Source: Pseudomonadota bacterium
GTDB taxonomy: Bacteria > Pseudomonadota > Alphaproteobacteria > Rhizobiales > Beijerinckiaceae
Length of the DNA: 64,000 nt
Assembly (NCBI GenBank): GCA_021813805.1
Contig: JAKAJL010000018.1
Location: forward strand, 1-64,000
Direction of reading: 5' to 3'
Part shown: one piece after another, positions 41,177 through 46,731 of the stretch
How positions within the stretch are numbered: the stretch's first letter is position 1
How the letters are laid out: each line of letters starts with the position of its first letter
Position numbers and translations under genes: made by a program
Notes under the pieces: generated by a model
Database searches by the model: none
Told to the model about the DNA's origin: nothing
The model's input: the letters and a program-made list of their open reading frames with translations, nothing else

Positions 41177-41884
41177 TTATCTCAGCGTGCTGACATAGGC
41201 CGCTACGGCCGCGATCTGCTGCTGGTTCAGATTGTGGGCGATGGGCTTCATCAGCGATGACACATCCTCGTCGCTCGCCTTCAAGCCGCGCTCTTTGTCG
41301 AAATTGGTCAGCTTGCGGACGATGTAATCGTTCAACTGGCCCGCGAGGCGCGGGATCTTGTCGTTGCCCATGGCGTCGTCGCCATGGCAGGTGGCGCAGG
41401 CTGGAACGTCGGCGCTCTTGACTCCGTTGTGGAAAATATCCTTGCCCGCGGCGGCGAGCGAGGCGGAGGCCCCACCGAGCGGCGGCGGGTTGAGCTTGTG
41501 GAAGCTGTTGGCCAGGAAATCGACCATTTCCGGGCTCAGGGCCTGAGCGACATGGTTCATAACCACATTCGTCCGGCGCGCCTGGATGAAGGCGTCCAAC
41601 TGGTTCTTGATATATTCGGGCTGCTGCCCGGCAAGGCGCGGAATCGGGAATGCGCCGCGGAAACCCTGGCCATTTACGCCGTGACAGGTTTTGCAATAGG
41701 TGAGTTTCGCTTCCATCTCGCGGTGCGCCGCCGCGCTGACCGGCCGCGGGGCAGGGGCGGATTTCGCGGCCGACGGCGCCGGAGCCGCGCCCTTGTTCTG
41801 ATCCTGCGCATGCGCCGCGACGCCGGCGCCAAGAATGACGGCCGCAGCCGCCACAGCGAGATATTTGCCGCCAATTGCCTGCAT
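41177..41884 (-). CDS. Exported diheme cytochrome c (c4 type)
   Basis: The 235-aa periplasmic protein has a signal peptide (1-26, ending AAHA), a Pro/Ala-rich linker and two cytochrome c domains. Haem sites are CKTCH (64-68) and CATCH (163-167); likely axial Met residues are 109 (NVVMN) and 212 (SLMKP). The paired IPRLAGQQ and IPRLAGQL motifs mark the c4 family, soluble or membrane-loose two-haem electron carriers. A strong SD (AAGGAAGG) precedes ATG 41884. It is a clear paralogue of the cytochrome encoded divergently at 42547. Confidence 0.9.
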   Translation of the reverse strand: MQAIGGKYLAVAAAAVILGAGVAAHAQDQNKGAAPAPSAAKSAPAPRPVSAAAHREMEAKLTYCKTCHGVNGQGFRGAFPIPRLAGQQPEYIKNQLDAFIQARRTNVVMNHVAQALSPEMVDFLANSFHKLNPPPLGGASASLAAAGKDIFHNGVKSADVPACATCHGDDAMGNDKIPRLAGQLNDYIVRKLTNFDKERGLKASDEDVSSLMKPIAHNLNQQQIAAVAAYVSTLR

Positions 41885-42546
41885 GATTCCCCCACCTTCC
41901 TTTGACGTCGCTCGGACGTCGCCACGCTTCCGGCGTTCCGTCCGGTCTTCGATTCCGCTAGCGCCGCCGTCCGCGCATCGGCAATGATCTAGAACAATTC
42001 GCTCCCCGCCGCCGCATTTATTTGCGCAGTTCGACATATCGCATGCAGAGCGGACGCGACCGTGACCTCGACGGCGCCATCATTGGCTACCGTCAACACA
42101 TTATAAACGCAATAGCCAAGGGAACCGCAATAAACGGCCATATGAAAAACATCGACAGAGTATATATCTTTCCTCCACCTCCGCCTTCGCGTGATTTCCT
42201 CTGCTTTCGCCGCATTTGTGATTCTAAAGTTTTTTTGAGAAAGATCGTCACTATAATTTTAAATTTTTTTTTAGAAAGAAACAATCCAAGAACCGTACCG
42301 GCTCTGTCCTCTTTTAGCTGGGGTTTCCGCCACTTATGCGACAAAAATGTCACGCGATTCGGAATTGTGGCCAAATTTCATCTATGTCAATTGCCACATG
42401 CAGGGGAACGGCTAAACATCCGTCAAGAGCTGAGTCGGCGATGGCTGGCCCAGGCTTGTTCCGCCTCGAAGCAAAGCCCGTCCATTTCGCCTGCGCGTAC
42501 TGTAAAAAAGTCGGCAGGGAATGTATAAATAAAGGGGAGTAAAGCC
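41885..42546. promoter_or_regulatory. AT-rich divergent control region of the cytochrome locus
   Basis: This 660-bp region separates two divergent cytochrome genes and is markedly AT-rich at 42160-42310, unlike the GC-rich flanks. A degenerate FNR/FixK-like site TTGACATAGATGAA (minus strand, 42377-42390; consensus TTGAT-N4-ATCAA, one clear mismatch) is present. TATAAAT (42524-42530) and AAGGGGAG (42532-42538) lie just before ATG 42547. Open frames of up to 168 codons here lack any homology sign. Regulation by oxygen or redox is inference. Confidence 0.4.
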
Positions 42547-43197
42547 ATGAAGGCTATTCATGGGCGATACGCGTTGAGTTCCATTGCGCTCGCAGGGGCG
42601 CTCATGGCGTTGGGGTCATCCGGCTCGGCGCTGGCGGGGCCGCGCGAGTCGTCAGGCGGCGTTCAGGCCAAGATCGAATATTGCGAGACGTGTCACGGCG
42701 ATCGCGGGCAGGGCTTTTACGGCTATTACGCCATTCCCCGTCTCGCCGGCCAGCAGACCGGCTATCTCGAGAATCAGCTGCGCGACTTTTCGAGCGGCAT
42801 GCGCCACACGGCGATCATGAGCCCCATCGCGCGCAGCGTGAGCCCGTCGATGTATGGCGCGATCGCAGCCCATTTCCACGCCATGAATTCGGCCCCGCTC
42901 GGGGGTGGCTCAGGCGGCAATGCGGCGCTCGGCCGCGATATTTTCATGAACGGCATTCCGGAATCGAATGTGCCGGCCTGCTGGGCGTGTCATGGCGCGG
43001 ACGCCCATGGCTCGCGGGACATCCCTCGCCTTGCCGGCCAGTTGCCGTCCTATCTCATCAACACTCTTTCGAACTGGTATCAGCAGCGCGGAACAAAATC
43101 GGAGCATGGCTATTCCGCGCTGATGGTTCCGACCACGCATAATCTGACGCGGGCGCAAATGGCCGCGGTCGCCGCCTATGTCAGCGGCTTGCATTAA
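42547..43197 (+). CDS. Exported diheme cytochrome c (c4 type), first gene of Cyc2-like operon
   Basis: The 216-aa periplasmic protein has a signal peptide (1-30, SGSALA), haem sites CETCH (46-50) and CWACH (145-149), and likely Met ligands 91 (IMSP) and 193 (LMVP). Two c4-type IPRLAGQ motifs follow the haems. It matches the divergent paralogue at 41177 along the whole length, so the pair arose by duplication. It lies 60 bp upstream of a third cytochrome and in the same direction as the Cyc2-like gene, suggesting that it accepts or gives electrons at the outer-membrane protein. Confidence 0.9.
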   Translation: MKAIHGRYALSSIALAGALMALGSSGSALAGPRESSGGVQAKIEYCETCHGDRGQGFYGYYAIPRLAGQQTGYLENQLRDFSSGMRHTAIMSPIARSVSPSMYGAIAAHFHAMNSAPLGGGSGGNAALGRDIFMNGIPESNVPACWACHGADAHGSRDIPRLAGQLPSYLINTLSNWYQQRGTKSEHGYSALMVPTTHNLTRAQMAAVAAYVSGLH

Positions 43198-43257
43198 GGC
43201 GTTTCGCTCCGGCTGGCGCCGGGTCCGTTCCGAGATTCACACACGAGAACAAAGGCC

Positions 43258-44025
43258 ATGAAACAAACAGGCTTGACGGTCGCCTCCCTCGCGATCTCCC
43301 TTCTGGCTGCAGGTCCGCTGCATGCGCAGCAAGCGGAAGGGAATTATCTGGCGACGCTTTTCCACGCGACGCCGGCCAGCGTGCCGGACCATAACTGCGT
43401 CATCTGCGGGCCTGCCACCCCGCTTTACTCCCCGCCGCCGGACGCGTCTTATCCGCTGGCGCTGCTGCCGCTTCCCGGGGCGAACGGCCCGCCGGTGAAG
43501 AACTGTACCTTCTGCCATGGCGTGTCGGCGCAGGGGCTTGCTGTTGCGCCGCGCCTGGCGGGACAGCGCGCCGCTTATATCCAGAAGGAGCTTGGCGCTT
43601 TCCGCAATCACTCGCGGGACAACCCCTATTCCGCGCTCTACATGTGGAACGCGGTCCCCAATCTCCATCCCGAGACCGCGCGGGCTCTGGCGGATTATTT
43701 TTCCCGCGAGGCGCCGCAGGCCGCCGCCGACGGCAATCGCGCCTTGGTCGATCAGGGCCGCGTGCTATATCAGCAGGGCGAACCGCAGGCGAATATCGTC
43801 ACCTGCGTGGTCTGCCACGGTCCGGACGCTCAGGGCGTCGGCGCCATTCCCCGTCTCGCTGGCCTTTCGTACAGCTATCTGAAGCGGCGGCTGGAGCAAT
43901 GGAGCCAGGGTTACCATCAGACGGCCAAGCCGATGCCGCAAGTCACGCAGAGCCTCTCGGCTGAGCAGATCGACGCGCTCGCGTCCTATCTGAGCTTCCT
44001 CGACGATCGCGCGGCGAGCCGGTGA
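43258..44025 (+). CDS. Exported diheme cytochrome c with an extra N-terminal Cys pair
   Basis: The 255-aa periplasmic protein has a signal peptide (1-23, LHA), then a region with CVIC (47-50) lacking the haem His, followed by two c4-like domains with CTFCH (83-87) and CVVCH (183-187). Candidate Met ligands are 129 (LYMWN) and 226 (PMPQ). Repeated APRLAGQ/IPRLAGL motifs confirm the c4 family. The CxxC without His may form a disulfide, hold a metal or be a decayed haem site. The next gene, 95 bp on, is the Cyc2-like protein. Confidence 0.88.
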   Translation: MKQTGLTVASLAISLLAAGPLHAQQAEGNYLATLFHATPASVPDHNCVICGPATPLYSPPPDASYPLALLPLPGANGPPVKNCTFCHGVSAQGLAVAPRLAGQRAAYIQKELGAFRNHSRDNPYSALYMWNAVPNLHPETARALADYFSREAPQAAADGNRALVDQGRVLYQQGEPQANIVTCVVCHGPDAQGVGAIPRLAGLSYSYLKRRLEQWSQGYHQTAKPMPQVTQSLSAEQIDALASYLSFLDDRAASR

Positions 44026-44120
44026 CGCCTTCGCCGGGCGCGTCTTTTTGAACCAGGGTCAAGAACAATCCGCCGCCCCGTGAACGAGGCCAATGGCGGG
44101 AAGTGAGGAGGGCCTTTTTG

Positions 44121-45602
44121 ATGGCCGGGATCAACGAATTCAATAAAGCTCTTCGGGCTGGCGCCGTGTTCGGCCTCGGTCTTGCGGGTCTCGTCGGCGC
44201 ATCCGACGACGCCTCGGCCCTGCCGAGTTTCGCGCGTCAGACCGGCCAGAACTGCTCGACCTGTCACACGGCCTTTCCGCAACTGACGCCATATGGCCGC
44301 CGCTTCAAGCTCGGCGGCTATACCGCGGGCGGCGGCATCGACACCCAGTTTCCGCCCATCTCTTTCATGCTGCAATCGACATACACCAATCTCGATAGGG
44401 GCCTGAACGCGCCGGCCGGCTCCACTTCCCAATATGTGCGTCCGCAGCCTCCGGGAACCAACGGCTTTAATGACGCCAACAACTGGGTCGACCTTTCGAC
44501 GCAGGCCAGCATTTTCTGGGGCGGCAAGATTTGGGGCAATCTCGGCGCCTTCGTCCAGGCGACCTATTCTTTGGATTACGGAAGCCAGTTCGCCTGGGAC
44601 AACACCGACGTCCGATATGCCGAGACGAGGCATATCGGTCCGTTCGACGTGGTCTGGGGCCTCGACTTCAACAATAATCCGACGGTGCAGGACCCCTGGA
44701 ACACGACGCCGGCCTGGGGCTTCCCCTTTATCGGCTCGCCCTTCGCCCCCGGCCCCGCCGCCTCGACCATGCTCGAAGGCGCGGATTGGGGCCCCGGCCA
44801 GGTTGTTGGCGCTGGCGGCTATCTCTTCATCAACGACATGCTCTATCTCGAACTGACGGGCTATGGCGGAACCTCGCATGACTTCCAATGGGCGATAACC
44901 GGCGGACCGGCCAGCAACCTGCTCAGCGGCGTCGCGCCTTATTATCGTGTCGCGCTGGAAAAGGACTGGGGCGAACATTCGCTGGAAGTCGGCGCCTATG
45001 GCATGAACGCCAATGTCATCACCGGCGGGAATTCGGGCTTGCCGGCGGGCACCTTCGGATGGCCGACAGACATCGTCACCGACAACGGCTTTGACCTGCA
45101 ATATCAGTGGATCACCGATGTTCATGCGGTGACCCTGCGGGCGAATTACATCCTGGAGCGGCAGCAGCTCACCTCAAGCCTTCTCCAGGGCATCTCGGCC
45201 AACAATGTGGACTATCTGCGCAGCCTGAAAATCGGCGCCGAATATGTCTACAAGAACACCTATGCGTTCACCGCGACCTATTTCAACATCAACGGTACGG
45301 CGGACATGACGCTGTATTCGGCGAACTCCAACTTTTCGCCGAATTCGGAAGGCTGGATGTTCGACATCTCCTATCTGCCCTTCTCTCGCGGCGGCCCGTC
45401 CGTCTGGCCCTGGGCCAATGCGCGCATCGGCCTGAGCTATACGCTCTATACCCGGTTCAACGGCGGAACCAGCAATGTCGATCCGACGGCTGTGGATGCG
45501 GGAGGCGCCAACCTCCTGTGCAACGGCGGCAGCGTCACCCCCTATTGCCGCAGCGCCAGCGACAACAACACCCTGCTGGCCTACGCCTGGTTCATGTGGT
45601 GA
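44121..45602 (+). CDS. Cyc2-like outer-membrane fused cytochrome-porin
   Basis: The 493-aa protein has a signal peptide (1-33, ending ASA), then PSFARQTGQNCSTCH with one haem c site (45-49) and FPQLTPYGRRFKLGGYTAG. A remainder of about 420 residues in alternating aromatic/polar strands rich in Tyr, Trp, Asn and Gly ends with AYAWFMW. A terminal aromatic residue is the usual outer-membrane barrel signal. One short haem plug plus a barrel is the design of Cyc2, the iron-oxidising cytochrome-porin; the motif FARQTG...CxxCH...FP.LTPxGRxFKL is close to that group. ATG 44121 has GAGGAGG upstream; GTG 44103 is less likely. Function in electron transfer across the outer membrane is inference. Confidence 0.75.
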   Translation: MAGINEFNKALRAGAVFGLGLAGLVGASDDASALPSFARQTGQNCSTCHTAFPQLTPYGRRFKLGGYTAGGGIDTQFPPISFMLQSTYTNLDRGLNAPAGSTSQYVRPQPPGTNGFNDANNWVDLSTQASIFWGGKIWGNLGAFVQATYSLDYGSQFAWDNTDVRYAETRHIGPFDVVWGLDFNNNPTVQDPWNTTPAWGFPFIGSPFAPGPAASTMLEGADWGPGQVVGAGGYLFINDMLYLELTGYGGTSHDFQWAITGGPASNLLSGVAPYYRVALEKDWGEHSLEVGAYGMNANVITGGNSGLPAGTFGWPTDIVTDNGFDLQYQWITDVHAVTLRANYILERQQLTSSLLQGISANNVDYLRSLKIGAEYVYKNTYAFTATYFNINGTADMTLYSANSNFSPNSEGWMFDISYLPFSRGGPSVWPWANARIGLSYTLYTRFNGGTSNVDPTAVDAGGANLLCNGGSVTPYCRSASDNNTLLAYAWFMW

Positions 45603-45645
45603 TATTGGGCAAGGGGAGCTTTGACAGAGTAGGCGCGGCGCGGGG

Positions 45646-46731
45646 ATGATTTGGTTTGTCTTCGCGCTGCTGACCGGCGCGGCCGTCGCGGTCCTGTTGT
45701 GGCCGCTCACCGGCCCGCCGCGTGAAACAAGGGAAGACGCCGCTGACGTCGCCTTCTATCGCGCCCAGATCGCTGAAATCGACGCGGAGCTTTCCCGCGG
45801 CGGGGCCGCCTCGGACGAAGCCGAGGCGGCTAAACTTTTGGCTGGGCGGCGATTGCTCGCCGCCGCGGGGCAAGAAACCGCGCCGGGCGACGCGCCTCAC
45901 GCGCGGAAATTCGCCATTCTCCTGATCGCGCTCGGCGCGCCTCTGATCGCGCTGGGGCTCTACGCGAAAGTCGGACGGCCCAATCTGCCCGACATGCCGC
46001 TCGTCTCGCGGCCAAAACCACCGCCCGCGCCGGAAACACGAAAATCGCTCGCCGATCTGGAGGCCTATCTTGCGGCCCACCCCAAGGACGGCAAGGCGCT
46101 CGAACAGATCACGCCGCTCTATCTGGAGGCGCGCCGCTACGATGACGCCGTGAGGACCGGAAAGGCGGCGCTCGACATTCTGGGTGAGTCGCCCGAACGG
46201 CTGGTGAAATATGCCGAGGCTCTGTCCTACGCCAATGACGGCGAGTTTTCGCCCGAAGCGGTGAGCCAGCTCGAGCGCGCGGAAAAACTCGCGCCGAAAT
46301 ATCTGCTGGCGCGCTATTACCTCGGCCTTGCCGCCGCCCAGCGGGGCGAGGTGGACAAGGCGAAGGAAATCTGGACCGCTATGCTGCCCGAACTCAGCCC
46401 GGGCTCGCAGGCGAAAAAGAATGTTCTGGAAAAACTCGCGATGCTCGACGCGCCGGTCGATGGCGCCGCGTCGGGACCGCAACCGAACGCGCCGCCTGCG
46501 GACCAGCAGAAGTCGATCCAGTCCATGGTGGACGCCGCCGCGCAGCGTCTGGCGGCAAAGGGCGGGAGCGTCGAGGAATGGACGCGCCTCATCCGCTCCT
46601 ACACGGTCCTCAATGAGCCCGACAAGGCGCGGGACGCCCTTGACCGGGCGCGCAAGGCGCATTCTGGCGACGCGGCCGCGTTGGCCGAACTCGACGCGCT
46701 GGCGAAAGAGCTGGGGGCGAACGCCAAATGA
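45646..46731 (+). CDS. ccmI: Cytochrome c maturation protein CcmI (CycH)
   Basis: The 361-aa membrane protein has an N-terminal helix (MIWFVFALLTGAAVAVLLWPL), a cytoplasmic loop with a Leu-rich element (VAFYRAQIAEIDAELSRG), a second helix near 90-105 (FAILLIALGAPLIALGLYA), then a periplasmic TPR domain (130-361). This is the CcmI layout; the TPR part holds the C-terminal end of apocytochrome c for haem attachment. It follows the Cyc2-like gene by 43 bp. The usual partners ccmE, ccmF and ccmH do not follow, so it is a separate ccmI serving or co-expressed with this cytochrome set. Confidence 0.85.
   Translation: MIWFVFALLTGAAVAVLLWPLTGPPRETREDAADVAFYRAQIAEIDAELSRGGAASDEAEAAKLLAGRRLLAAAGQETAPGDAPHARKFAILLIALGAPLIALGLYAKVGRPNLPDMPLVSRPKPPPAPETRKSLADLEAYLAAHPKDGKALEQITPLYLEARRYDDAVRTGKAALDILGESPERLVKYAEALSYANDGEFSPEAVSQLERAEKLAPKYLLARYYLGLAAAQRGEVDKAKEIWTAMLPELSPGSQAKKNVLEKLAMLDAPVDGAASGPQPNAPPADQQKSIQSMVDAAAQRLAAKGGSVEEWTRLIRSYTVLNEPDKARDALDRARKAHSGDAAALAELDALAKELGANAK

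Follow-up and report, generated by a model that had tools for sequence, protein, structure and literature searches.

The question raised by this locus is whether a small group of haem-protein genes, found in a relative of purple bacteria that is itself not photosynthetic, encodes a route for moving electrons across the outer membrane and, if so, in which direction and from which donor. We analyzed a stretch of 64,000 nucleotides (positions 1 to 64,000 of contig JAKAJL010000018.1, assembly GCA_021813805.1; hereafter the window) from a genome that GTDB places in the genus Rhodoblastus and whose assembly is 98% complete. The window carries a cassette built around cyc2, a gene for a cytochrome-porin, together with three dihaem cytochrome genes (cytA, cytB and cytC) and a ccmI gene, arranged in the order cytA<-/->cytB-cytC-cyc2-ccmI. 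The cassette is probably a Cyc2-type outer-membrane electron-uptake route leading from Fe(II) to the three c4 cytochromes. Computed support for this comes from the family motif, the barrel-like fold, the c4 partners, the conservation of the set, and the RuBisCO and phosphoribulokinase genes of the host. The features of the locus are as follows.

41177..41884, minus strand: cytA, dihaem c4-type periplasmic cytochrome (Pfam Cytochrom_C, 7e-16; best PDB match 1h1o, 1.8e-26)
41885..42546, no strand: divergent intergenic region of about 660 bp (four-genome DNA alignment)
42547..43197, plus strand: cytB, dihaem c4-type periplasmic cytochrome (Pfam Cytochrom_C, 1e-12; best PDB match 1h1o, 2.6e-24)
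43258..44025, plus strand: cytC, dihaem c4-type periplasmic cytochrome (Pfam Cytochrom_C, 4e-16; best PDB match 1h1o, 5.1e-30)
44121..45602, plus strand: cyc2, cytochrome-porin of 493 amino acids (Cyc2 consensus motif; AlphaFold2 model; Foldseek; profile match to f209)
45646..46731, plus strand: ccmI-2, cassette-linked CcmI paralogue (NCBIfam TIGR03142, 72.6 bits)

Re-reading of the sequence recovered what the initial annotation had described, namely the coordinates of the open reading frames (ORFs), the single CxxCH site at residues 45-49 of the cyc2 product, its terminal Trp and the 43-bp gap that separates cyc2 from ccmI (45602 to 45646).

The cyc2 product has the sequence features and predicted fold of Cyc2

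Cyc2 proteins are recognized by an AXPXFAR[Q/K][T/Y] sequence before the CXXCH haem site, a PXL sequence after it, a length above 365 amino acids and a porin domain (Keffer 2021, PMC8406198). The first part of the AXPXFAR[Q/K][T/Y]-CXXCH-PXL consensus is said in the same source to be unique to Cyc2. The N-terminal stretch of the cyc2 product around the haem site reads ALPSFARQTGQNCSTCHTAFPQL, and it contains both elements, the first as ALPSFARQT-GQN-CSTCH and the second as CSTCH-TAF-PQL. There is one CxxCH in the 493 residues. By eye, a hydrophobic N-terminus ending in ASA suggests a putative signal peptide of about residues 1-33 (the model has a helix at 2-25), which is followed by a haem segment at about 34-78 with CSTCH at 45-49; the chain ends in an aromatic residue, the terminal Trp.

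The AlphaFold2 model, for which an alignment of 59 proteins served as input, has a pLDDT of 82.2 and a pTM of 0.83 and predicts 16 strands of at least nine residues between positions 80 and 492, behind the helical haem segment. The model thus agrees with the barrel expected in the initial annotation and, as a prediction, supplies the C-terminal 16-strand porin domain of the family. Searched against the PDB with Foldseek, it matched 125 chains at E<=0.001, and the 50 matches listed include chitoporin, AlgE, OmpF, OprP (2o4v) and OprO (4rjw), the last two being templates named for Cyc2 modelling (Keffer 2021, PMC8406198). By sequence, no unrelated characterized family emerged as best homologue: the single sequence gave no match in Pfam, NCBIfam or the PDB, and the family profile gave only two matches against the PDB, both non-significant (best E 0.036). 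The profile of 59 relatives aligned with 11 Cyc2-like proteins of the family f209 over 326 columns (E 1.1e-24). We take f209 to be Mariprofundaceae, on the basis of sequence and genome traits. With the motif, one haem site, a length above 365 amino acids and a predicted 16-strand porin-like domain, membership of the cyc2 product in the known Cyc2 family is supported by sequence and predicted fold.

Three c4 cytochromes adjoin cyc2, and the set is conserved

Each of the three dihaem proteins has two CxxCH motifs and Pfam cytochrome c domains (CKTCH and CATCH in cytA, CETCH and CWACH in cytB, CTFCH and CVVCH in cytC), in keeping with the initial reading of two dihaem genes co-directional with cyc2 and a divergent third, cytA, whose ATG start codon lies at 41884. 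All three fit a pair of c-haem domains into about 180 residues and are homologous to a solved c4, as c4-type cytochromes do and are. The best PDB relative of each is 1h1o, which we take to be the Acidithiobacillus ferrooxidans c4 cytochrome CYC41/Cyc1. CYC41 is attributed to Abergel 2003 (reference 73) in Keffer 2021 (PMC8406198).

A tree was built from 86 of 92 dihaem proteins, two duplicate loci having been dropped. The cytC type, the most divergent member of the trio, formed a clade (24 rows, support 98/97) to which each locus contributed a single protein; the orthologues of cytB formed another (19 rows, support 100/98). Most cytA types were split over two further clades, with cytA itself grouping with dihaem genes found beside cyc2 in relatives; cytA and cytB did not separate for some Xanthobacteraceae and Hyphomicrobium-like loci. 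Loci of Methylocapsa, Bradyrhizobium and Xanthobacteraceae have orthologues of the trio next to cyc2. At E<=1e-20, the cytC type was present in 6 of 60 genomes (own genome included), all six of which have Cyc2 and have every match inside the cassette, and it was present in none of the 49 genomes without Cyc2.

The Cyc2 family is represented by at least 537 confirmed loci, of which the best 80 serve here as the named loci; L numbers denote individual loci. With the own genome counted, a Cyc2 match was found in 11 of 60 relatives (8 of 11 within the genus) and in 13 of 385 genomes class-wide. A draw from the phylum gave a match in 88 of 398 genomes, 65 of the 88 being f209 and most matches being N-terminal only. 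Individual genomes are labelled G000 (own genome) upwards, G001 being Rhodoblastus acidophilus DSM 142, G002 Rhodoblastus sp. 17X3 and G003 Rhodoblastus BP08. Conservation of gene order, which the initial annotation had proposed as a check, was observed: 4 of 11 same-genus genomes share the order cytA<-/->cytB-cytC-cyc2-ccmI (own, G006, G010 and G007, the contig of G007 ending inside the cassette ccmI), and cytA<-/->cytB-cytC-cyc2 is kept in G001 and G005 with ccmI on the opposite side. Because the gene block is kept across same-genus genomes, the co-occurrence of the cassette genes exceeds chance.

In the stretches fetched for the best 80 of at least 537 loci, many of which end at contig ends, c4-like dihaem ORFs numbered three in 19, two in 1, one in 15 and none in 45. 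On a Cyc2 tree of 87 rows, 55 of them without a label, loci with at least two c4 genes accounted for two label changes, compared to a mean of 9.9 in shuffles. Such loci are clustered on the Cyc2 tree, yet they do not form one clade against the single-c4 loci. The initial annotation had called the set unusual in an alphaproteobacterium, a view that the class-wide and relative counts do not bear out. With the cluster type already known from Bradyrhizobium and no fewer than 537 loci for relatives of Cyc2, the presence of Cyc2 here is not unusual. In a published similarity network, the A. ferrooxidans protein (AfCyc2) connects to Hyphomicrobiales homologues (PMC10654088).

Several further observations concern these genes. 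Ahead of its first haem site, cytC is extended at the N-terminus by a stretch containing a CVIC pair that is not followed by His; the stretch also occurs in the closest relative, G007, and does not occur in G006 or G010. In a Methylococcales metagenome-assembled genome (MAG), a Cyc2-like ORF is followed by a 321-residue ORF with ten CxxCH sites (L083:9498-10460), possibly a pair of single-haem porin and decahaem partner. A Bacteroidetes MAG has, after cyc2, one small haem ORF and then a 169-residue ORF with five CxxCH sites (L112:9801-10307), and Cyc2-like genes are present in several Bacteroidota.

The host resembles a chemolithoautotroph

The own genome encodes two RuBisCO large subunits, one accompanied by a small subunit and CbbQ and the other near phosphoribulokinase. 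A photosynthetic reaction centre had no match in the own genome or in G006, G007, G002 and G003. Judged by its gene content, with two RuBisCOs, hydrogenases and no reaction centre found, the host appears to be a chemolithoautotroph for which Fe(II) and hydrogen are possible donors. Searches of the own genome revealed no HiPIP (PF01355, E<=0.001; HiPIP protein query, E<=0.01), and the same holds for the cassette-sharing G006 and G007; G010 lay outside both the HiPIP and the reaction-centre searches. By tblastn with a HiPIP protein, a HiPIP match is present in the fetched stretch of 21 of the best 80 of at least 537 loci (including L038:7212-7475 and L046:7253-7489). Two tandem HiPIP copies lie near cyc2 in L052 and L062, and by eye the HiPIPs of L016 and L046 have a twin-arginine-like leader.

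By these data, Rhodoblastus holds what looks like a complete Cyc2 set for electron uptake; no paper linking the genus with Cyc2 was found in a literature search whose coverage left out most subscription papers. The genus also supplies natural controls. A reaction centre is present in G001 (the cultured R. acidophilus DSM 142), G005 and G004, and G004, with a reaction centre and no Cyc2 match, can be set against the own genome, G002, G003, G006 and G007, with Cyc2 and no reaction-centre match. Because G001 has cyc2, the c4 trio and a reaction centre, with no PioB found, Cyc2-based photoferrotrophy is directly testable in a purple bacterium. Both G001 (L018/L040) and G005 (L019) have Cyc2, three c4 genes and a reaction centre, with no PioB found, and these two purple bacteria are thus candidate photoferrotrophs of the Cyc2 type. 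Each has a weak HiPIP match near the cassette and better HiPIP matches elsewhere in the genome.

Proposed route of electrons and alternative explanations

In the proposed route, Cyc2 would form a 16-strand outer-membrane porin with its single c-haem presumably at the periplasmic end. Dissolved Fe(II) would enter the barrel from outside and hand an electron to the Cyc2 haem, from which electrons would move to the three periplasmic c4 dihaem cytochromes as the probable next carriers, the trio occupying the position of Cyc1 and CycA in Acidithiobacillus. Electrons would then be split between a downhill branch, to a putative terminal oxidase, and an uphill branch, through a putative bc1 complex and complex I, and the uphill branch would power CO2 fixation through the two RuBisCO systems. 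CcmI-2 may help in the haem loading of the cassette cytochromes. Oxidation of Fe(II) by the cassette is likely, and the earlier reading of these genes as an electron-transfer route is supported by the Cyc2 features together with c4 partners that are co-conserved with Cyc2.

Several points weigh against the uptake route. Similarity to porins is loose (the 50 matches listed have TM-scores of 0.25-0.45 by query length and root-mean-square deviations of at least 6.8), and because of these TM-scores the similarity of the modelled fold is to the porin class and not a close match. Residues C45, C48 and H49 are invariant across the 59 aligned Cyc2 relatives, a conservation that is partly circular because the selection of loci and proteins itself used patterns built around CxxCH. 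Function is less sure for Cyc2 homologues far from characterized members (Keffer 2021, PMC8406198). The host has [NiFe] hydrogenase genes, so autotrophy need not depend on Fe(II). Finally, the cytC type is missing in 5 of 11 Cyc2 genomes (G002, G003, G011, G026 and G033), and the c4 trio is therefore not an obligatory partner of Cyc2.

The conduit could run outward, from the c4 cytochromes through Cyc2 to Fe(III) or another external acceptor, as nothing in the sequence fixes the direction. Isoforms of Cyc2 and Cyc1 have been discussed for ferric iron reduction in acidithiobacilli, Cyc2 homologues occur in Acidocella, and Fe(III) is reduced by Acidiphilium species and by Acidocella aromatica (PMC10715153); the best 80 of at least 537 Cyc2 loci include those of Acidocella aromatica and Acidiphilium rubrum. 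However, tested Cyc2 representatives, one per cluster, oxidize Fe(II) (Keffer 2021, PMC8406198), and the RuBisCO and phosphoribulokinase of the host require an electron donor, though hydrogen could serve. On this evidence we consider outward flow unlikely.

The substrate might also be something other than iron, such as a different metal, an organic shuttle in its reduced form or a solid electrode; alternatively, the protein might serve metal detoxification without energy gain. A non-iron function is deemed possible in many holders of Cyc2 not known to oxidize iron (Keffer, PMC8406198; He, PMC5566968), and the family is scattered over many lineages. Against this, none of the five cassette and ten flanking genes looks like a partner for a different metal or substrate (Pfam; one flanking gene without a match), and we think such a function quite unlikely. 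It is very improbable that cyc2 encodes an ordinary porin with a chance CxxCH and that the adjoining c4 cytochromes are unrelated to it and belong to aerobic respiration: cytochromes of the c4 type are widespread as electron carriers and the barrel alone resembles ordinary porins (Foldseek), but the full Cyc2 motif is present, the cytC type is confined to Cyc2 genomes (60 genomes, E<=1e-20) and orthologous c4 genes recur beside cyc2 across several families. No PioAB conduit was found as an alternative: MtrB_PioB (PF11854, E<=0.001) had no match in 12 genomes, own included.

A second ccmI accompanies the c4 trio

CcmI is an apocytochrome chaperone of cytochrome c maturation. The gene downstream of cyc2, initially annotated as ccmI, encodes the N-terminal domain and the TPR domain of CcmI (TIGR03142, 72.6 bits against a cut-off of 29.3; PF23914, 45.9 bits against 42). 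Besides the cassette copy, the own genome contains a further ccmI in a ccmI-ccmE-ccmF operon on contig C25, which makes two in all. In a search covering eight genus members (G000-G007), all five c4-trio genomes examined (G000, G001, G005, G006 and G007) had two copies and the trio-less congeners G002, G003 and G004 had one full copy, that of G002 consisting of two adjoining pieces and G004 showing an extra weak match of 49 residues. G010, which carries the cassette ccmI, was outside this search. No window-like ccmI was found in the named loci outside the genus (tblastn, E<=1e-3, flanks of up to 8 kb; best 80 of at least 537 loci). The second, cassette-linked ccmI of c4-trio genomes is new here; no title on a cyc2-linked ccmI appeared among the literature matches listed, subscription papers being mostly outside their coverage.

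In a tree of nine ccmI sequences the cassette copies fall in two places, with a single origin in 8% of bootstrap trees, and ccmI may therefore have been recruited twice next to the same cassette. The cassette ccmI genes of R. acidophilus (L018:2442-3257) and G005 (L019:12294-13103) match over about 270 amino acids only and branch apart from the window-type copies. We tentatively put forward, as a more specific form of the uptake route and one we would not bet on as a whole, that a non-phototrophic autotrophic Rhodoblastus oxidizes iron by a variant of the Cyc2 pathway that has lost its HiPIP link and runs through three c4 cytochromes only, with its own CcmI paralogue specialized for these cytochromes or for the cytochrome-porin and perhaps recruited twice.

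Surroundings of the cassette and the divergent intergenic region

Biotin genes lie upstream of the cassette (Pfam) and unrelated genes downstream. Among the stretches fetched from relatives, that of G007, the closest one, is the only one with biotin genes next to the cassette, so that this neighbourhood, to which the initial annotation had drawn attention, looks incidental. A Pfam scan of the ten flanking proteins, one of which had no match, revealed no cox subunit and no cupredoxin.

The length of the intergenic region between cytA and cytB is kept within 3 bp in four genomes, and the DNA alignment of these genomes contains short conserved blocks at about 41983-42001 and 42017-42025, which are possibly a promoter or operator. 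In Rhodoblastus 17X3, a similar sequence, TTAGAACAATTCTA, occurs in the interval that separates HiPIP from cyc2 (L038:7688). We also considered an Irr/ICE-like box in the divergent promoter and rejected it: there were 17 sites in 86 sequences compared to about 14 per mononucleotide shuffle, with no enrichment, in a count whose restriction can miss sites. The window had 0 sites.

Comparison with known electron-transfer systems

PioAB and MtoAB resemble the proposed system in being outer-membrane conduits for electron uptake; they consist of a porin and a decahaem partner, whereas the protein of the window is a single-haem fusion. In the rus operon of Acidithiobacillus the gene order is cyc2-cyc1-cup-coxBACD-rus (PMC10654088). 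As in the window, cyc2 adjoins c4 cytochrome genes there, and 1h1o is the best PDB relative of the window trio, but the window has three c4 genes and the operon one. Genes for cup, cox and rusticyanin were absent from the five cassette and ten flanking genes, the 15 to which the search was confined. With the Cyc2 family itself, represented by A. ferrooxidans Cyc2, Mariprofundus Cyc2PV-1 and Leptospirillum Cyt572, the window protein shares the motif, the one c-haem site, a length above 365 amino acids and a predicted 16-strand porin; it differs in having no match in Pfam, NCBIfam or, as a single sequence, the PDB. A redox potential of 208 mV was measured for Cyc2PV-1 (Keffer 2021, PMC8406198).

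The nearest counterpart of the whole cassette is in Bradyrhizobium, where cyc2 is clustered with HiPIP and three periplasmic cytochromes c, including homologues of Cyc1 and CycA1 (He 2017, PMC5566968, citing Percak-Dennett 2017). Orthologues of the window c4 trio surround cyc2 in the Bradyrhizobium loci that we fetched, and we infer that these are the cytochromes meant by He 2017. The window differs in having cytB-cytC upstream of cyc2, an added second ccmI and no HiPIP found genome-wide. The window cassette is most likely a Rhodoblastus member of this published cluster type.

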